Positions 604 to 39,511 of a stretch of 64,000 nucleotides of DNA are shown here, piece by piece. A program made the translations under genes and the position numbers. Within the stretch, counting starts at the first letter, position 1. Each line of letters begins with the position of its first letter. The stretch is from Methanobacteriota archaeon (lineage in GTDB: Archaea; Halobacteriota; Methanomicrobia; Methanomicrobiales; Methanomicrobiaceae). The stretch covers positions 1 to 64,000 of the forward strand of contig JAENYT010000002.1 of assembly GCA_016841665.1 (NCBI GenBank), given 5' to 3'. Below the pieces are notes generated by a model, which was given only the letters and a program-made list of their open reading frames with translations, had not been told where the DNA came from and searched no databases.

Positions 604-2174
604 GTCAGTCTCTTCACCATATATGGTCCTTTACGCTCATAGCCGTGCCTGCGGTAGTACGGGCGGACGCCGATCCCGCTCATCACCGCCATCGCTGCAA
701 ACCCATCCGCGCGGGCGGTCTCCTCCGCCTCGGAGAGCAGCCGGTTGCCGTACCTCCTGTGCTGCCACTCGCGGGTTTCTGGAGTCTTTCCGAGAGAGAC
801 GAGGCTGCCGTAGACGTGCAGTTCCCGCAGGAGGGCGGCGCCTTCGAGTTCCTGCCTCCATGGAGAGGCGGGGAATCGCATCCGGGCAAAGCCGATGAGA
901 GCATTGTCGTCTCCCGCAGAGATAAAGTGCTCAGTTCCACCACAGCACTCGTAGGCCGTCATCCGGATCTCGGGCTCTTCGGTGAGCCGGGCCCTGCCCA
1001 CCTCCCTGCAGCGGATGCACCGGCACTGCTTTCCCTGCGAAGTGAGGCGCTCCTGCGCCAGCTGCCGGAAATTGCTGTGCCGCGACCCCGCCACGATGAG
1101 CTTTGCCGGGATATCGCGCTGGACGCGCTGGAGGCGCACGTATTCGGGGAGCAGGCTTTTGCCGTAGGCGATGAGATCGATGAGTTCATCCTCGCTATAT
1201 ACGCAAAACTCCCCCCGTTCCCAGAGCGCCTCGATCTCTGAGCCCGGGGTCACCAGGGTGGGGTAGATCTTGATGAAGTCCGGTTTGAACCGGGGGTCGG
1301 AAAAGAGGGTCTCGAAGAGGCTGCGGTCTTCTTCGATGCTCGATGCAGGGAGATTGGGCATGACATGGAAGCCCACCTTCAGCCCGGCGTCGCGTAAAAG
1401 CCGGTTCGCCTCGGCGCTCTCCTCCACGGTGTGCCCCCGCCGGTTGTAGGCGAGGATGCGGTCGTCGACATGCTGCACCCCCACCTCCACCTTGGTCACC
1501 CCGAGGGAGAGCATGCGATCGATGTGCTCGCGCCGGCACCAGTCCGGGCGCGTCTCGAAGGTGACGGCGATGCAGCGTACGTGAGCCCGTTCATTCGCCG
1601 CACAGAGTTCTTCGAAGGAGCGGTCATCGCTCCCCGGCTCCTGCCCGAATTCGTTCATCGCCCGGATGCACGCACGCATAAATTCGTCCTGGTAGGCAGG
1701 ATCGCGGGCGGTCATGGTCCCGCCCATGACGATCAGCTCCACCTTGTCGATATCGTGGCCGAGCTCGGTGAACTGCTGCAGGCGGACCCGCACCTGTGCG
1801 TAGGGGTCATAGGCGTTCTGGCGCCCCCGAAGGGCTGCCGGTTCCTCACCCGTGTAGCTCTGGGGCGAGTGGAAGGGATGATCCGGTCCGCCGGGGCAGG
1901 GGAGGCACGTGCCGTGCGGGCAGGGGTGGGGAGAGGTCATCACCGCCACCGGCGCCACCCCGGAGAGCGTCCGGGTCGGTTTCACCTGCAGAAGGCGACG
2001 CAGGTATTCCCGCTCCGCATCATTCGCCGCGGCGAGGATCGCGGAGTTTTTCGGGATGGAGGCAAGACCGTGGCTGCGGGAGACGGCAATCTTGATCCGC
2101 TGGACATCCGCGGGGGAACTATCCTCAGAAGTAAGCCGGGAGATGATCTCCCTCAAAATTGAGTGGTTTTCCAT
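600..2174 (-). CDS. elp3: Elp3-family tRNA uridine-34 acetyltransferase (radical SAM + GNAT)
   Basis: A 524-residue Elp3 homologue, expected to start cm5U-type modification of the tRNA wobble uridine from acetyl-CoA by a radical mechanism. The radical-SAM cluster motif CPHGTCLPCPGG is visible about 90 residues in, and the C-terminal GNAT domain carries the acetyl-CoA loop HRRYGNRLL and ends in RPYYRRHGYERKGPYMVKRL. Length is normal for archaeal Elp3. It starts at the ATG 3 bp after UPF0058 and its stop overlaps the priS start, so the three genes form one operon. Archaea have no full Elongator complex, so this enzyme probably acts alone (family knowledge). Confidence 0.93.
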   Translation of the reverse strand: MENHSILREIISRLTSEDSSPADVQRIKIAVSRSHGLASIPKNSAILAAANDAEREYLRRLLQVKPTRTLSGVAPVAVMTSPHPCPHGTCLPCPGGPDHPFHSPQSYTGEEPAALRGRQNAYDPYAQVRVRLQQFTELGHDIDKVELIVMGGTMTARDPAYQDEFMRACIRAMNEFGQEPGSDDRSFEELCAANERAHVRCIAVTFETRPDWCRREHIDRMLSLGVTKVEVGVQHVDDRILAYNRRGHTVEESAEANRLLRDAGLKVGFHVMPNLPASSIEEDRSLFETLFSDPRFKPDFIKIYPTLVTPGSEIEALWERGEFCVYSEDELIDLIAYGKSLLPEYVRLQRVQRDIPAKLIVAGSRHSNFRQLAQERLTSQGKQCRCIRCREVGRARLTEEPEIRMTAYECCGGTEHFISAGDDNALIGFARMRFPASPWRQELEGAALLRELHVYGSLVSLGKTPETREWQHRRYGNRLLSEAEETARADGFAAMAVMSGIGVRPYYRRHGYERKGPYMVKRLT

Positions 2175-2177
2175 GGG

Positions 2178-2435
2178 TTACTGTTCAACAGCGACCTTTT
2201 CTTTTGTAGAGAATTCCACCATGGGAGGCTGCTGCTGCCGCAGGTGCTGGACAATCTCCTCACCCAGGGTAAGGATTGCCTTCTTGTGACAGATCTTATT
2301 CTTGTGAATGTGCACCGGAGAGATGCCGAGTTCATCATAACTGGCGGTGGCGATCTCCTCCCCCCTCGATTTCTCATGGAATTTTTTCACATGAACCAGA
2401 AGCATATGCAAATGGAGCAATTCTTCTTTCTGCAC
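2178..2435 (-). CDS. UPF0058 family protein
   Basis: Small helical protein of 85 residues starting (M/V)QKEELLHLHMLLVHVKK, the hallmark of UPF0058, a conserved archaeal family without known function. I chose the GTG at 2435 because family members start exactly at QKEELL and because GGTGAG lies just upstream; a longer TTG start at 2453 would add six residues without a ribosome site of its own. First gene of the UPF0058-elp3-priS operon, which may hint at a role in information processing (inference only). Confidence 0.8.
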   Translation of the reverse strand: MQKEELLHLHMLLVHVKKFHEKSRGEEIATASYDELGISPVHIHKNKICHKKAILTLGEEIVQHLRQQQPPMVEFSTKEKVAVEQ

Positions 2436-2475
2436 GTTCTCACCAATCCTCAAAAAATACTACATTTCCCAGACT

Positions 2476-2486
2476 GATATAATTTA
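2476..2486 (-). promoter_or_regulatory. TATA box for UPF0058-elp3-priS
   Basis: Read on the minus strand this is TAAATTATATC, about 45 bp before the GTG at 2435. That gives a short leader holding the GGTGAG ribosome site. Confidence 0.5.
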
Positions 2487-2488
2487 TT

Positions 2489-2495
2489 GGTGATC
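2489..2495 (+). promoter_or_regulatory. Strong Shine-Dalgarno site fixing a TTG start
   Basis: GGTGATC matches the archaeal anti-SD exactly and sits 6 nt before the TTG at 2502. It argues against the in-frame TTG/GTG at 2487/2490, which overlap the site itself. Confidence 0.65.
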
Positions 2496-2501
2496 TTTAT
2501 A

Positions 2502-3374
2502 TTGAACTTCGTCAATGCAGCGGGAGTGATTATCGGACTTGCGATCGGCGACGCAATGGGCGCGCCCCTCGAGGGGCTCCCTGTGCCCCCTCGCCCGGTC
2601 CGATCCTTCGAGGGAGGAGGGCTCCACGGCATCCAAGCGGGCCATTTCACCGACGACACCCTTCAGGCGATGGCGATCGCAGAATCGCTCGTATTTTGCG
2701 CAGGTTTTTCCCCGGAAGATATTCTCAGGCGGTTTGTACAGGACTTTGCGCAATCCCCGCAATTCTACGGCCCCACGTCCTCTGCAGTCTTCGAGCTGAT
2801 CCGGGAGGGGGCACTTCCCCGGGAAGCGGCACAGCGGGTGTACGACGCCTCAGGCGGGGGGCGGAGCAATGGCGGTGTCATGCGCGGGGCGCCCATCGGG
2901 GTCTATTATCCTCCCCGGGCGGTGCGCGAGGTGAGTATCGAGTGCGCCCGTCTCACCCACCTTCATCCGGTCGCCGCCGAATGTTCGGCCTTCGTCAACC
3001 GGATGGTGAGCGGTCTTTGCCGCGGGGAGGACCGGTCACGCGCCCATTACCGCGCCCTGCGCGCCTGCGCGAGCGATGAGGTATGCGGGATGCTGGCGGA
3101 TCCGCTCCGTTTCCCCCTTTCCCCCTCCCTCGACGCGCTTGAAACGACGCACTGTGCGGTATCGATCTTTATGGATTCATCGTCGTTTGAGGATGCGGTG
3201 GTCGGCGCGATCAATCTCGGCGGCGATGCAGATACGATCGGGGCCATTTGCGGCGCGCTGGCAGGTGCCGACTATGGAATCGGGGCAATCCCTTTCGACT
3301 GGCTGGCCGGCCTTCACCGCGCCGGTGAACTGCTCGACCTCTCATGGAGGCTGTTTCTGGGTGCCCGCCGCTGA
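2502..3374 (+). CDS. ADP-ribosylglycohydrolase family protein
   Basis: Removes ADP-ribose from modified proteins or small molecules (DraG/ARH fold, two Mg ions). The N-terminal GLAIGDAMGAPLEG, the metal-binding HFTDDT segment and the C-terminal GGDADTIGAICGALAGA are the family's metal and substrate motifs, all intact in 290 residues. TTG at 2502 was chosen for the perfect SD upstream. No ADP-ribosyltransferase or nitrogenase gene is nearby, so a DraG role in nitrogenase control is not supported here; the substrate is unknown. Confidence 0.88.
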   Translation: MNFVNAAGVIIGLAIGDAMGAPLEGLPVPPRPVRSFEGGGLHGIQAGHFTDDTLQAMAIAESLVFCAGFSPEDILRRFVQDFAQSPQFYGPTSSAVFELIREGALPREAAQRVYDASGGGRSNGGVMRGAPIGVYYPPRAVREVSIECARLTHLHPVAAECSAFVNRMVSGLCRGEDRSRAHYRALRACASDEVCGMLADPLRFPLSPSLDALETTHCAVSIFMDSSSFEDAVVGAINLGGDADTIGAICGALAGADYGIGAIPFDWLAGLHRAGELLDLSWRLFLGARR

Positions 3375-3377
3375 CGC

Positions 3378-3830
3378 TCACACCGGGCGCAGTTCAACCA
3401 GTTTCAGGGCCCTGCCCCGCTCGCATTCGACAGGCGGGTTGCCGAGGACCTCCCCGACGAGGTAGTAATCACCCGACACCGCTCCCTCGGGGTTGCAGAG
3501 GTCGCAGCCCTTGCAGGACTCCTGCCTGCACCCGGGCTCGAAGAGTATCTTTGAATTGACGATGGCCTTTTCCGCGGGAATAAGGGCCAGAACAGGGGAT
3601 TCAATCACCTCCACTGCGCAGGCCTCTCCTCCTGCGTGAACACTGCATTCATGCCGGGTGGAGTTGCGCACGGTGACGATCCGGTACCGCTTCTTTGGCT
3701 GGAGGTTGTTGCACACCTTGTTCAGCTTGCAACCCTTGCACTCGGGCAGCGCGCCCTCGTACACGAACTCCAGATCCGGGCGTGCGAGGTGCCTCCCGAT
3801 CAGCGTGACCTTGGTCTTTGTATCCTGCAT
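3378..3830 (-). CDS. UPF0179 family cysteine-rich protein
   Basis: A 150-residue archaeal protein with eleven cysteines in clusters (ECKGCKLNKVCNN, RHECSVH, CRQESCKGCDLC), matching UPF0179. Function is unknown; the pattern suggests metal or Fe-S binding. It starts 6 bp after the egsA stop, so it is co-transcribed with egsA. It converges on the ADP-ribosylglycohydrolase with only 3 bp between the two stop codons. Confidence 0.85.
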   Translation of the reverse strand: MQDTKTKVTLIGRHLARPDLEFVYEGALPECKGCKLNKVCNNLQPKKRYRIVTVRNSTRHECSVHAGGEACAVEVIESPVLALIPAEKAIVNSKILFEPGCRQESCKGCDLCNPEGAVSGDYYLVGEVLGNPPVECERGRALKLVELRPV

Positions 3831-33923: not shown

Positions 33924-34262
33924 GGTAGTATATATAAAAACTTTTTTTTTGGCGAAATAAAGGTTGTTTTTTTATGTGGGAGAGGGGTGCCTTTCCATCC
34001 ATTCTCCCCTATTTTTGGGTGAATACTCCTGGTGCAACTGCCCGGTGCTTCCATGCACTTCTCACTCCGGTTTCCCTTGCTCTTCTGATCGGATCGGGGG
34101 GAGGAGGAAATCCGGGGCATGCCTCATGGTTTCTCGTTATGATCGAATGTCCTGCTGCCGGCCTGCGCCGGTGTATGATGCCTCCGTGTTGAATAGTGAT
34201 CTTTTTACAATAATAGAAGGAAATATCCTTCCATCCATTAATAAAAGGGTGGGATGAAAATC
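33924..34262. other. Intergenic region upstream of amt
   Basis: Contains a T-rich stretch next to the kinase start, a GC-rich middle with no gene, and at its right end the amt promoter (TTTTTA at 34202-34207) and NrpR-type operator. Confidence 0.5.
34219..34232. promoter_or_regulatory. NrpR-type operator (GGAA-N6-TTCC) before amt-glnK
   Basis: GGAAATATCCTTCC fits the NrpR operator consensus GGAA-N6-TTCC described in Methanococcus. It is embedded in a 6-bp-arm inverted repeat GAAGGA-AATA-TCCTTC (34216-34231) and sits where transcription should start, about 25 bp after a TTTTTA element (34202-34207). NrpR represses nitrogen genes when 2-oxoglutarate is low, which fits the downstream ammonium transporter. 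Confidence 0.72.
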
Positions 34263-35621
34263 ATGATTAAGCGATCACAATTAACGATGTTGATGGTTCT
34301 CATCTTCCTGGCAATGTTCGTCAGTCCGGTATGGGCTGGCGATCCTTCCGGGGAGGCGACCCTCGCTGAGTATCCTGATGCACCTCTGGATTTTATCTGG
34401 GTACTGATGTGCGGATTCCTCGTGATGTTCATGCAGCCCGGCTTCGCCATGCTTGAGAGCGGGTTCACGCGGGTGAAGAATGCGGCGAATATCATGATGA
34501 AAAACCTCATGGACTTCTCCATCGGGGCGCTCTCCTACTGGGCAATCGGATTCGCCATCATGTACGGCACCATGGAGGGGCTCAACTGGCTGATGGGCTG
34601 GTCGGGATTCTTCCTGATGGGAGATGCCTACGATGTGGTCACCATCCAGTCGTGGTTTTTCCAGATGGTGTTCGCCGCAACCGCAGCCACCATCGTTTCG
34701 GGGTGCGTTGCCGAGCGGTGCAAATTCAGCACCTATATCCTCGTGAGCATCGTCACCACGGCGCTCATCTATCCCATCTACGGGCACTGGATCTGGGGAG
34801 GCGGATGGCTCTCCGGGATGGGGGCGCTTGATTTCGCCGGCTCCGGCGTGGTGCATGCGCTCGGCGGGTGGATCGGTCTGGCCGGCGCCCTCGTGCTCGG
34901 CCCGAGGTTCGGCAAGTACCGGAAAGACGGCACGCCGAATGCCATTTCCGGTCACAGTATCACGATGGCAACGCCGGGTGTCTTCATCCTGTGGTTCGGG
35001 TGGTTCGGGTTCAACTGCGGTTCGACCCTCATCGGCACCGATCTGCGCACATCGATCATCGCTACCAACACCACGCTCGCGGCCGCCGCCGGCCTGGTGA
35101 TGGCGATGATCATCACCTGGAAGTGGCATGGCAAGCCTGATGTGGGCATGGCCGGAAACGGCGCCATCGCCGGTCTCGTGGGCATCACCGCGCCCTGTGC
35201 GTGGGTCACGCCGCTCTCGTCCGTCGTGATCGGCGCTGTCGCCGGCGTGCTCGTGGTCGCCGGGGTATGGTTCTTCGACTGGGTCCTGCACATCGATGAC
35301 CCGGTGGGTGCGGTCAGCGTGCACGGTATCAACGGCGCATGGGGATTGCTCGCCCTGGGCATCTTCGCCGACGGCACCTACGGAGGCGTGACCGGATTGC
35401 TCTATGGCGATTCCGGTTTCTTCGCCGTACAGGCGCTCAGTGTGGCGGTCAACTTCGTCTGGGCATTCGGGCTCGGTTTCATCGTGTTCTGGGTGCTCAA
35501 GAAGACCTTAGGGATCCGTGTCTCCCCCGAAGAGGAGCTGGAAGGCTTGGACATCGGCGAACACGGCATGTCGGCCTACCCCAACTATGTGATGACCGAA
35601 GCCTTTGTGGAGGTGGACTGA
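34263..35621 (+). CDS. amt: Ammonium transporter
   Basis: Membrane channel for ammonium, forming a trimer gated by GlnK. The 452-residue protein has a cleavable-looking N-terminus (to about VWAG), eleven membrane segments, and Amt signatures FAMLESGFTRVKNAANIMMKN, FAGSGVVHALGGWIGL and VHGINGAWGLLALGIF, with the twin pore histidines in VVHALGG and VSVHGING. I prefer the ATG at 34263 because GGTGGG lies 8 nt upstream; an ATG at 34254 adds three residues. Confidence 0.95.
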   Translation: MIKRSQLTMLMVLIFLAMFVSPVWAGDPSGEATLAEYPDAPLDFIWVLMCGFLVMFMQPGFAMLESGFTRVKNAANIMMKNLMDFSIGALSYWAIGFAIMYGTMEGLNWLMGWSGFFLMGDAYDVVTIQSWFFQMVFAATAATIVSGCVAERCKFSTYILVSIVTTALIYPIYGHWIWGGGWLSGMGALDFAGSGVVHALGGWIGLAGALVLGPRFGKYRKDGTPNAISGHSITMATPGVFILWFGWFGFNCGSTLIGTDLRTSIIATNTTLAAAAGLVMAMIITWKWHGKPDVGMAGNGAIAGLVGITAPCAWVTPLSSVVIGAVAGVLVVAGVWFFDWVLHIDDPVGAVSVHGINGAWGLLALGIFADGTYGGVTGLLYGDSGFFAVQALSVAVNFVWAFGLGFIVFWVLKKTLGIRVSPEEELEGLDIGEHGMSAYPNYVMTEAFVEVD

Positions 35622-35960
35622 ATGCAGAAGATTGAGGCCATTATCCGGCCCAGCAGGGTCGATGAGGTGAAGCGGGCACTCGAGGCCATCGGCAAGGTCT
35701 CGCTCACCCTCACCGATGTGAAAGGACGCTGCCAGCAGAAGGGAATCAAGCGGCAGTGGCGTGGGGCGGAGTATGTCCTCGACCTCCTCCCCAAGGTCAA
35801 GATCGAGGTCGTGGTGGCTGACGGTGATGTCGATGCCGTGGTCACCGCAATCTGTGAGGCGGCACGCACCGGCCAGTTGGGCGACGGGAAGATATTCGTC
35901 GTTCCGGTCGGCCGGACGATCCGGGTGCGGACCGGAGAGGAGGGGGACGCGGTGCTCTAG
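35622..35960 (+). CDS. glnK: P-II nitrogen regulator GlnK
   Basis: Trimeric signal protein of 112 residues that binds ATP/ADP and 2-oxoglutarate and blocks Amt when nitrogen is plentiful. The T-loop is KGIKRQWRGAEYVLDLLPK with the conserved RGAEY, and the C-terminal signature GDGKIFVVPVGRTIRVRTGE is intact. The ATG directly follows the amt stop, so the pair is one operon under the NrpR-type operator. Confidence 0.95.
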   Translation: MQKIEAIIRPSRVDEVKRALEAIGKVSLTLTDVKGRCQQKGIKRQWRGAEYVLDLLPKVKIEVVVADGDVDAVVTAICEAARTGQLGDGKIFVVPVGRTIRVRTGEEGDAVL

Positions 35961-36182
35961 GAGGAGGTTTCTCTCCTTCTCCACCGAGCGAAACTGAGGC
36001 TAATCTCTCATGGAAAGGACCATTCAGGCTCGTCCGAAGCGCAGAAACATTGGTTGGAGGTGTCTGGTATGTAAATGAATGATGGAGATTTGTGCCGACG
36101 CGAGCTCCCAACGCCCGGCGCTTGTTGCGTGTGGAATAGATCCCACAATCATGGACCTTTGTGTCGCACTCCATATGTGTCA

Positions 36183-36202
36183 GGAGGGGCGTATCCCCCT
36201 CC
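36183..36202. repeat. GC-rich hairpin upstream of the MBL fusion gene
   Basis: GGAGGGG, six-base loop, CCCCTCC; 25 bp before the ATG at 36227. Could be a leader hairpin; no known riboswitch motif is recognisable. Confidence 0.4.
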
Positions 36203-36226
36203 CTGCCGCTCATCCTATCATGAACC

Positions 36227-37411
36227 ATGATTCGAAACCTTGCCGACGATCTCTATCAGGTTAAACTCGGGTCGAACTCAAGCAACTGCTACCTCATCAC
36301 CGGGGATATCACGATCCTGATCGATACAGGAACGGTACTGAGGATTCCCGAGATGGCAAACACGCTCTCTGAAATTGGATATTCTACTCCAGACATCGAT
36401 TTGGTGATCAATACCCACGAGCATTCCGATCATATCGGCGGAAATGTCCTTTTCCAGAAGACGGCACTCATTGCTGCCCATCGGAATGCCGCGGTGAAGA
36501 TCATTTCGGGTGATGACGAGGTCATGCACTGCCGGGCACACGCCCAGAAGTTCGAGGGGTATCACGTCCACGCATGGCTTTCCAATACTGATGTGATCGA
36601 TGCGGACAGCTGGTTCCTGAAAGTGCTTCATACACCCGGGCATACCTCCGGGTGTATCTCGCTCTACGATCCCCGGCGAAGGGTGTTATTCTCGGGAGAT
36701 GCCCTCTTTGCAAGTGGCACGCTCTCCACAATCTATGAATCGGGAAGCCTCGGTGAGTATTTCAACTCGCTGCGCAGGTTGGGGACAATGAAGATCGATC
36801 TCCTCTTTCCGGGGCATGGCCGGGAATCGAACAATGTTGACGGCGATCTTGAGCTTACCATCAGGAATGCCATCGCGCAATTCCCCGGTGCAGCCCGCCT
36901 TGCAGCGATGTTCGTGCCCGTTATCGCCGGCCTCTGCCTCTTCGAGACGATTAGCAGCATTGACAATGCCATCATCAACGCCGAGGTGCTGGCCACCATG
37001 GACCGGTGGGCCCAGCGCTGGTTTCTCATCTGGGGGCTGCTCATCGCCGTCGCGGGCATCCGGTTCCTCCTCCCCTGGGTGATCGTCTGGGCGACGGTGC
37101 CCGAACTGGGCCCCATCGAGGCCATCACCGCAACGTTCAGCGATGACCCGGCGGTCATCGAGGCGATCGAACGGTCCGCTCCCGTGCTGTTGATGTTCGG
37201 GGGCACGTTCCTCGTCTTCCTCTTCTTCCACTGGCTCTTCCTCGAGGACAAGCACTACGGGCTGCGGGGGGAGCGCTACATACGCACCAGGGGGGTCTGG
37301 TTTTTTGCGGTGGTCTCCATCCTGCTCTCCCCCATCGTCACCTTCATGATTGTGGGTTATTTCTTAGCCCTTTCCGTCCGGTCGCCGCCGGGCGGAGGTT
37401 CTCGGGCATAA
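36227..37411 (+). CDS. Metallo-beta-lactamase-fold hydrolase fused to a truncated DUF475 membrane domain
   Basis: A 394-residue hybrid. Residues 1-215 are a complete MBL-fold hydrolase with metal ligands THEHSDH (H64, H66, D68, H69), H139 in HTPGHT, D158 in SGDAL and H197 in GHGRE. From about 228 it continues as an integral membrane protein with the DUF475/TerC-like motif CLFETISSIDNAIINAEVLATM, IRFLLPWVIVW and FSDDPAVIEAIERSAPVLLMFGG. It stops after roughly the first half of DUF475. The frame is unbroken across the joint. It could be a real two-domain protein or a deletion fusion of two genes. Confidence 0.72.
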   Translation: MIRNLADDLYQVKLGSNSSNCYLITGDITILIDTGTVLRIPEMANTLSEIGYSTPDIDLVINTHEHSDHIGGNVLFQKTALIAAHRNAAVKIISGDDEVMHCRAHAQKFEGYHVHAWLSNTDVIDADSWFLKVLHTPGHTSGCISLYDPRRRVLFSGDALFASGTLSTIYESGSLGEYFNSLRRLGTMKIDLLFPGHGRESNNVDGDLELTIRNAIAQFPGAARLAAMFVPVIAGLCLFETISSIDNAIINAEVLATMDRWAQRWFLIWGLLIAVAGIRFLLPWVIVWATVPELGPIEAITATFSDDPAVIEAIERSAPVLLMFGGTFLVFLFFHWLFLEDKHYGLRGERYIRTRGVWFFAVVSILLSPIVTFMIVGYFLALSVRSPPGGGSRA

Positions 37412-37558: not shown

Positions 37559-37963
37559 CTACGTTTCAGCCGTTTTTGCCTGTTTCTGCCGATAATCCTC
37601 GATTGCCTTGTGAAGTGCGTCGGCAGCAAGGTTCGAGCAGTGCATCTTGATCGGCGGCAGCCCCTCCAGTTCGTCAGCGACATCCTGGCGGGTAATTTCG
37701 AGCGCTTCATCGAGGGATTTCCCCTCGGCCAGCTCGGTCACCATGCTTGCCGTGGCGATGGCAGACCCGCACCCGAACGTCTTGAACTTGATCTCGGTGA
37801 TGATCTCGTCCTCAACCCGGATGGAGACCTGCATGAGATCGCCGCACACGGGATTTCCCACGATACCTATACCGTCTGCATCTTCCACCTCACCTACGTT
37901 CCGCGGGTTGAGGAAATGGTCCATCACCTTCTTTGAATACCCGATCTGTGGTTTCTCCTCCAT
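37559..37963 (-). CDS. iscU: IscU/NifU-type Fe-S cluster scaffold
   Basis: A 134-residue scaffold on which Fe-S clusters are built. The three ligand cysteines and the Asp are present: NPVCGD, FKTFGCGSA and KMHCSN. The N-terminal GYSKKVMDHFLNPRNVGEV is typical. It is the last gene of tusA-dsrE-nifS-nifU, 26 bp after nifS, and should pair with that unusual NifS. Confidence 0.94.
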   Translation of the reverse strand: MEEKPQIGYSKKVMDHFLNPRNVGEVEDADGIGIVGNPVCGDLMQVSIRVEDEIITEIKFKTFGCGSAIATASMVTELAEGKSLDEALEITRQDVADELEGLPPIKMHCSNLAADALHKAIEDYRQKQAKTAET

Positions 37964-37989: not shown

Positions 37990-39138
37990 TCAGAGTGCCG
38001 TAATCGCCCGCAGCCTCTGCACGGTTTTCTCCATCGCATCGACAACCACGGGAATGTCCGCATCGGTGTTCGACCGCCCGAGTGTCATGACGACCGATCC
38101 ATGCGCCTCCTCGTGTTTCAGGCCGATTGCAAGGAGCACATGGGATGGTTCGAGCGTTTGTGAGGTGCAGGCCGACCCTGTGGCAACCTGAATGTCGTGG
38201 ACAGTATCCAGATTCAACAGGATGCTCTCACCCTCGATCCTGCCGAACCGGAAACTGGCATGATTCGGCAGCCGCTGTGCGGGGTGCCCCGTGAGATACG
38301 CGTCCTCAATTGCCAGTATCTCCCCGATCAGGGCGTCACGCACCGTGGTGAGGCGCCGGCTTTCATGGTGCATCTCCTCGGCTGCAAGATGCGCCGCTTC
38401 ACCAAATGCCGCCACGGCGAAGATGTTTTCGGTCCCCGACCTCAACCCCCGCTCCTGACCGCCGCCGGGAAGGACGGGTTGCAAGCGTACGCCCTTTTTG
38501 ATGTACAGTGCAGCGGCTCCGCGAGGGCCGTAGAGCTCATTAGATGAGAGAGTGAGAAGATCGATCCCTTCTGCCTGCACATCGATGGGAATGGTGCCTG
38601 CCGCTGCCGTTGCGTTCACATGGAGGTAATTGCCGTTTTCGTGGACGATTTCGCTGATCTCGTGTATGGGTTCGATGGTACCAATCTCATCATTGGCATA
38701 ATTGATTGATGACAGGACGGTATCGGCCCTGACAATCCGGCCGAGTGCGTCCAGATCAATGATGCCATAAGAGTTCACGGGGACGATGGAGAGTTCAAAA
38801 CCCTGTTTTTGCAATTGTTTCATGGGATTGATGACCGAAATGTGGTCGATTGCACTGGTCACCACATGTGTCCCCATTTTACGGTTTCTGAGTGCTCCCC
38901 CCACAAGTGCGAGATTGTTCGCTTCAGTGGCGGTCGCAGTGAACACGATGCACGAAGGCGTCTCCGCACCGATGAGCCGGGCCACCTTCACGCGGGCCTC
39001 CTCAAGCGCTGTCCTGGCGGTGAGTCCGCGGGAATAGAGGGTTGACGGATTGCCAAAGTCCTCCCTCAGGTATCGCCCGGCGAATGCGAGCACGCGGGGA
39101 TCGACCGGCCTCGATGATGCATGATCAAGGTATACCAT
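37990..39138 (-). CDS. NifS/IscS homologue lacking the PLP lysine
   Basis: A 382-residue protein with the full cysteine-desulfurase fold: MVYLDHASSRPVDPRV start, H99 in AIDH, and the mobile active-site loop GSACTSQTLEPSHVL with C324 intact. Yet the cofactor residues are changed: the usual SxHK motif reads SSNELYG (Asn200, Glu201 for His-Lys), and the usual DAxQA reads NATAA (Asn175 for Asp, Ala178 for Gln). It should not bind PLP as a Schiff base, so ordinary cysteine desulfuration is unlikely. The ATG at 39138 was chosen as the fold starts there. An Archaeoglobus IscS also lacks this lysine. Confidence 0.9.
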   Translation of the reverse strand: MVYLDHASSRPVDPRVLAFAGRYLREDFGNPSTLYSRGLTARTALEEARVKVARLIGAETPSCIVFTATATEANNLALVGGALRNRKMGTHVVTSAIDHISVINPMKQLQKQGFELSIVPVNSYGIIDLDALGRIVRADTVLSSINYANDEIGTIEPIHEISEIVHENGNYLHVNATAAAGTIPIDVQAEGIDLLTLSSNELYGPRGAAALYIKKGVRLQPVLPGGGQERGLRSGTENIFAVAAFGEAAHLAAEEMHHESRRLTTVRDALIGEILAIEDAYLTGHPAQRLPNHASFRFGRIEGESILLNLDTVHDIQVATGSACTSQTLEPSHVLLAIGLKHEEAHGSVVMTLGRSNTDADIPVVVDAMEKTVQRLRAITAL

Positions 39139-39151
39139 GCCGCTGTACCAT

Positions 39152-39511
39152 TCAAAAGGTAATGACCCTGTCTGCATCAAGGGCGAGATCGTTGAGTGTC
39201 GCACCCCCGGCGATGATCCCCTCCGGGATGAAGTCTCCCCTCGGGATGCCAAGCAGCTGGGTGCTCTGCTCGCAGATATAGATCTTCACGCCCGCATCGA
39301 TCGCCTGCTGCATAATCTCCTTGAGCGTCGGGAATTCCCCGAGCTGAATTTTTTCAGCTTCCCCTTTCTTGACGACCGTGATTCCCTTGATCATGAAGAA
39401 CAGCACGGCCTCGACACCCATCGCTGCTGCGGTCATGCCAAGTACAAACGGGGCATACAGACGCTCTGGCGTGTCGGTCCCGCTCGTCTGAATATAGAGA
39501 ATTTTCGCCAT
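39152..39511 (-). CDS. DsrE-family sulfur-transfer protein
   Basis: A 119-residue DsrE/F-type protein (KILYIQTSGTDTPERLYAPF) with one Cys placed as in sulfur carriers (YICEQSTQLLG). Such proteins pass persulfide sulfur between TusA-like partners. GAGGTGG lies 3 nt before the ATG at 39511. It sits between tusA and nifS, 13 bp before the latter, so a sulfur relay onto the NifS Cys loop is likely (inference). Confidence 0.87.
   Translation of the reverse strand: MAKILYIQTSGTDTPERLYAPFVLGMTAAAMGVEAVLFFMIKGITVVKKGEAEKIQLGEFPTLKEIMQQAIDAGVKIYICEQSTQLLGIPRGDFIPEGIIAGGATLNDLALDADRVITF

Follow-up and report, generated by a model that had tools for sequence, protein, structure and literature searches.

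Metallo-hydrolases of the metallo-beta-lactamase (MBL) fold, DUF475/TerC membrane proteins and the amtB-glnK pair are the described systems with which the gene analyzed here can be compared. The LACTB2-like and glyoxalase II-like hydrolases have the fold and the metal ligands in common with its MBL part, the best solved relative by sequence being 4ad9 (beta-lactamase-like protein 2; E = 5.7e-18). By sequence, however, these hydrolases are far from it and their substrate is not transferable. Full-length proteins of the DUF475/TerC family (PF04332, NF010612) have about 300 amino acids, nine helices and two acidic motifs, SSIDNA and VIDATFSID. For one such relative AlphaFold2 predicts nine long helices with a mean pLDDT of 84, if the paired segments 3-20 and 22-32 are counted as one and two short helices are left out; the search of this full-length fold against the PDB gave no significant match.

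In Archaeoglobus-type genomes an MBL gene is found as the third gene of a cassette. At six of seven Archaeoglobus-type loci (L127, L128, L130, L131, L132 and L133) the MBL gene is immediately preceded by glnK and this in turn by amtB, and the MBL of L130 and L132 has another amtB-glnK pair downstream. At two further loci, whose proteins are 44-45% identical (L134 and L135), amtB and glnK are likewise close by, the gaps being 151 and 859 nt; L129 and the L136-L140 group are without the amtB-glnK arrangement beside the MBL. One MBL-carrying genome encodes a GlnK which is identical over 112/112 residues to PDB entry 3ncp, named GlnB-2 in the PDB, which we take to be A. fulgidus GlnK2; in this genome the MBL gene is located between glnK2 and the next amt. 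A. fulgidus GlnK2 is a PII protein reported to be unable to bind 2-oxoglutarate (PMC3198391). In the literature searched, we found nothing relevant on an amt-glnK-linked MBL. Here we describe a locus of a methanogen-like archaeon, within the first 64,000 nt of a 206-kb contig (the window), at which the MBL gene of such a cassette runs in frame into a shortened DUF475 gene.

Results

The open reading frame at 36227-37411 (plus strand) has 394 codons and its translation is uninterrupted; neither a stop nor a frameshift is present at the joint, as already read from the letters alone. Pfam assigns Lactamase_B to residues 17-197 (E = 2.7e-39) and DUF475 to residues 245-347 (E = 2.6e-21, profile positions 1-102 of 293). 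The gene is the product of two in-frame junctions, at nucleotides ~36914-36920 and ~37322-37330. The first one was placed by the limits of homology, as the similarity to MBL proteins ends at F229 and the similarity to DUF475 begins at V232. The features of the locus are collected in Table 1.

Table 1. Genes and junctions of the amtB-iscS region (positions in the window)
Feature	Position	Strand	Basis
amtB, ammonium transporter, first cassette gene	34254..35621	+	PF00909, E 1.2e-129
glnK (PII regulator), second cassette gene	35622..35960	+	PF00543, E 9.5e-29
MBL-fold protein, complete, ORF residues 1-229	36227..36913	+	PF00753; 61-67% to free-standing proteins
First joint, MBL stop and short tail replaced by DUF475, which begins near its ninth residue	36914..36919	+	Homology limits F229/V232
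DUF475 N-terminal part, about family residues 9-144, with SSIDNA, three membrane helices and start of the fourth	36920..37327	+	
Second junction, in-frame internal deletion of ~137 residues	37322..37330	+	Flanks are family positions ~138-145 and ~281-300
DUF475 natural C-terminal helix and stop codon	37328..37411	+	blastp-short E 2.9e-8; blastn E 3.8e-5
iscU/nifU-like scaffold gene, right flank	37559..37963	-	PF01592, E 3.9e-49; 98.5% identical, collinear in congener
iscS-like cysteine desulfurase gene, right flank	37990..39252	-	PF00266; 97.6% identical in congener

All seven metal ligands of the MBL fold are present in the translation, that is, the HxHxDH motif (H64-E-H66-S-D68-H69) together with H139, D158 and H197. 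In this the sequence-only reading was correct, but it had let the MBL end at about residue 215 and the relatives align to residue 229. Six full-length free-standing homologues, which are 61-67% identical, all belong to a single family within the same phylum. In the alignment their C-termini, ...FPEAENLASMFE and ...FPDAKYLAEMFGLS, each followed by the stop, stand against ...FPGAARLAAMFVPVIAGLCLFE of the window at the joint, and the first of these ends aligns to ...FPGAARLAAMFV... of the window through residue 229. As the homologues end at the joint, the MBL is whole to F229, and just its stop and the few residues of its tail are replaced. By its identity and by its position after glnK the protein belongs to the amtB-glnK-linked MBL subfamily of Archaeoglobus-type genomes: the similarity extends over the whole MBL, the order and orientation amtB-glnK-MBL are common to both and the C-terminus is the same up to the joint. 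The Archaeoglobus-type proteins, however, end a few residues further on, whereas the window protein continues into DUF475. The MBL domain is probably a still-working metallo-hydrolase. The cassette neighbors are related as well: ahead of the MBL, Archaeoglobus-type genomes have an amtB with 61-62% identity to that of the window, and the window glnK is 50-60% identical to the glnK adjoining the MBL there.

The second part had been described as a DUF475/TerC-like sequence with the SSIDNA motif from about residue 228, and this holds, with homology from V232 and SSIDNA at residues 243-248. From residue 232 to L367 the protein is up to 77% identical to the DUF475 proteins of the Methanolinea/Methanoregula type. 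The claim that DUF475 stops half way, in contrast, is wrong. The tail, residues 368-385 (SPIVTFMIVGYFLALSVR), is the C-terminal helix of the family: with blastp-short it matches positions ~281-305 of ~307 in full-length relatives (E to 2.9e-8), none of 20,000 shuffles equalled the observed score, and blastn aligns the DNA of the tail with several DUF475 genes at their 3′ ends (E to 3.8e-5). By comparison with the relatives, about 137 residues are absent in frame after residue 367, and both ends of DUF475 are kept except for the first ~8 residues, in place of which the MBL stands. Helix 4 is thereby cut short at its end, helices 5-8 are lost together with VIDATFSID, the second acidic motif, and what remains is helices 1-3 followed by a 4/9 hybrid. 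The encoded protein is thus not a full-length nine-helix DUF475/TerC protein and it carries one of the two acidic motifs, SSIDNA. Deprived of half of its helices and of the second acidic motif, the DUF475 part could hardly be a normal transporter. Several relatives have a CTCTCC-like microhomology at both sites which flank the deletion, for example CTCTCGC or GCTCTCCC. These short repeats suggest a deletion via slippage. At columns which are conserved to at least 97% in the family the window has a single departure, F in place of G at residue 280, and other members depart 0.47 times on average. Either the cut is recent or the DUF475 part is still constrained.

The hydropathy of the fusion reveals four segments of membrane-spanning length (residues 219-245, 264-292, 316-340 and 354-385). 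If the protein is made, the DUF475 part would be at most a four-helix anchor which might hold the MBL at the membrane. In the AlphaFold2 model of the fusion, strands and helices follow one another in an MBL-like pattern, and most pLDDT values of the MBL part are 80-96. Residues 223-251 are below 50 and the pTM is 0.58. Thus, no well-defined structure is predicted for the joint, where the input alignment is thin, which lowers the weight of this result.

It is doubtful whether the gene is expressed. The gap between glnK and the MBL is 266 nt in the window versus 16-40 nt in Archaeoglobus-type loci. A GC-rich hairpin at 36181-36205 (GGAGGGG-CGTAT-CCCCCTCC; z = -2.7) lies ~22 nt upstream of the MBL ATG, within the stretch 36090-36226 that is missing from the congener, and no ribosome-binding-like sequence was found directly before this ATG. 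The doubt rests on these two features. The only conserved GGAGGTG is ~160 nt upstream and precedes an ATG-TAA. Archaea also use leaderless transcripts and the missing ribosome-binding site is thus not a proof against expression. At 36055-36075 (GGAGGTGTCTGGTATGTAA) we observe a ribosome-binding-like site, an ATG and then an immediate stop; the ATG-TAA is common to the window and the congener G002, and G015, a genome of the same family, shares just the GGAGGTGTCTGG part.

Between 25 and 44 kb the window is collinear with the congener G002, which has amtB and glnK followed by iscU and iscS on the opposite strand. Its glnK-iscU interval contains an MBL pseudogene in which residues 55-111 and 114-141 are kept with 82-84% identity and both ends are missing; a frameshift separates the two pieces and codon 77 is TAG. 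Neither a DUF475 gene nor a remnant of one was found in this interval. Relatives in which this place is occupied by an MBL and a DUF475 gene, separate and both full-length, had been named as the observation that would show a local deletion, and such relatives were not found. A 10-nt exact match (AGCGATGTT; E = 0.23) is present between the joint of the window and the sequence just after the MBL remnant of G002. It would fall where the C-terminus of the MBL belongs, which is only suggestive. Within the MBL, the window and G002 differ at 14 amino acids, of which ten changed on the G002 branch and two on the window branch, with two unclear, and by 13 synonymous differences. The split of ten to two argues that the MBL of the window was constrained for most of the time since the two separated; this count covers the whole of that time and not separately the time since the fusion. 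We note that the amtB match in G002 (G002:C24:107982-109277) has one in-frame TAG and begins at query residue 24, so the decay in G002 may reach beyond the MBL into amtB.

The congener G001 has solely an amtB of another type, which is 39-40% identical. G015 and G018, which are of the same family, have an amtB with 89-90% identity and a glnK. No MBL remnant was seen in either; the contig of G015 extends ~390 nt past glnK, and this genome resembles the window to ~36067, just before the ATGTAA of the window. Of 232 genomes of the order, 31 (the window included) carry the amtB of the window type, the other 30 at 64-95% identity, and two carry the MBL, which accordingly appears to be readily lost in that order.

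The same fusion had been proposed as something to be searched for in other genomes. It was found neither in 40 relatives nor in viral contigs, nor among the best 80 of 522 relatives from 84,980 species genomes; a second true fusion would be expected near the top of these 522. Within these sets the gene is not a member of a conserved MBL-DUF475 fusion family. No close MBL was present beside the DUF475 genes examined, and ancestral neighborhood of an MBL and a DUF475 gene, which we considered, was seen as a pair at none of the loci examined. The window frame is the sole DUF475 match in its genome.

Discussion

We suggest, with a probability of roughly three in four, that the gene is a lineage-specific chimera which arose by two in-frame rearrangements in the decaying stretch between glnK and iscU. 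The MBL would originally have been the free-standing third gene of an amtB-glnK-MBL cassette. In one event the stop of the MBL would have been removed and the frame joined to a DUF475/TerC gene just past the start of the latter. In the other event, and the order could be either, slippage at the CTCTCC-like repeats would probably have cut the ~137 residues out of DUF475. The outcome would be a complete MBL followed by helices 1-3 and the 4/9 hybrid. The anatomy of the gene, both junctions, the cassette context and the collinear congener with its decayed MBL and without DUF475 are seen directly, whereas we infer the course of events, how the deletions arose, that transport is lost and that the protein is at the membrane. 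As this close relative keeps just a dead MBL remnant at the same spot, gene decay seems to have produced the fusion once, and we would not regard it as an enzyme of a new kind. The sequence-only reading left the choice between an unusual membrane-tethered hydrolase and a deletion that fused two genes. The latter fits better, but with two junctions and not one, as comparison with the separate genes of relatives shows an MBL that is complete but for its stop and short tail, and a DUF475 that is without its start and, separately, without the ~137 internal residues. Two points speak against our account. Two random deletions would both be in frame just one time in nine, and thus selection may to some degree have kept the frame open. 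Furthermore no relative with two full-length neighboring genes was found that would document a prior adjacency of MBL and DUF475.

A selected enzyme would explain why the frame is open through both junctions: the cassette MBL could have gained a four-helix DUF475 anchor beside AmtB, with the frame kept by selection. The intact ligands and the few amino acid changes on the window branch, the four hydrophobic segments and the conserved DUF475 residues are in line with such a tethered hydrolase. We nevertheless regard it as doubtful, as the fusion occurs in one genome only among those examined, the congener is losing the MBL, the joint is poorly modelled and the conserved GGAGGTG lies far upstream of an ATG that has no such sequence directly before it. 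That the protein would be tied to AmtB and GlnK and act in nitrogen control as a membrane-anchored MBL hydrolase, tethered by the cut-down TerC domain, seems highly improbable to us. It could also be argued that a DUF475 fragment of another organism was stitched between real flanks during assembly, since the draft genome consists of 68 contigs at 85% completeness and neither sister genome has a DUF475 here. Such an assembly error is unlikely: both flanks are collinear with the congener inside a 206-kb contig, two false joins would be required, both in frame and one within DUF475 at a short repeat, and the assembly contains no second copy of DUF475 or of a close MBL elsewhere. The chimera is an example of how an open frame resembling a designed fusion can arise in a decaying locus, and it is a trap for surveys of domain architecture.

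As to the source of the DUF475 part, a phage origin was considered and rejected, since the phage matches are distant and viral contigs yielded none. DUF475-like membrane proteins occur in Caulobacter phages whose genomes exceed 310 kb and in Klebsiella phages (e.g., MH588546.1 and LC483177.1). We also observed DUF475 at eight loci on contigs labelled as Patescibacteria groups, 64-70% identical to the methanogen type over ~140 residues, which hints at a transfer between domains or at binning errors.

The history of the cassette can be read in more than one way. Since other amtB copies in the genus and family are ~40% identical, we considered whether an Archaeoglobus-like donor had recently passed on the entire cassette. 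This idea is not upheld by the distribution of the window-type amtB in the order, nearly all of whose carriers are without the MBL. The cassette may be ancient, with the MBL lost repeatedly, or the MBL may have been gained separately. In archaea of the Archaeoglobus type an uncharacterized MBL-fold hydrolase regularly accompanies amtB-glnK as the third partner, and this side result may matter more than the fusion itself. Locus L132 (G330:C1, bases 1111-3464), for instance, has the MBL as third gene after amtB and glnK, as is also the case at L127, L128, L130 and L131.
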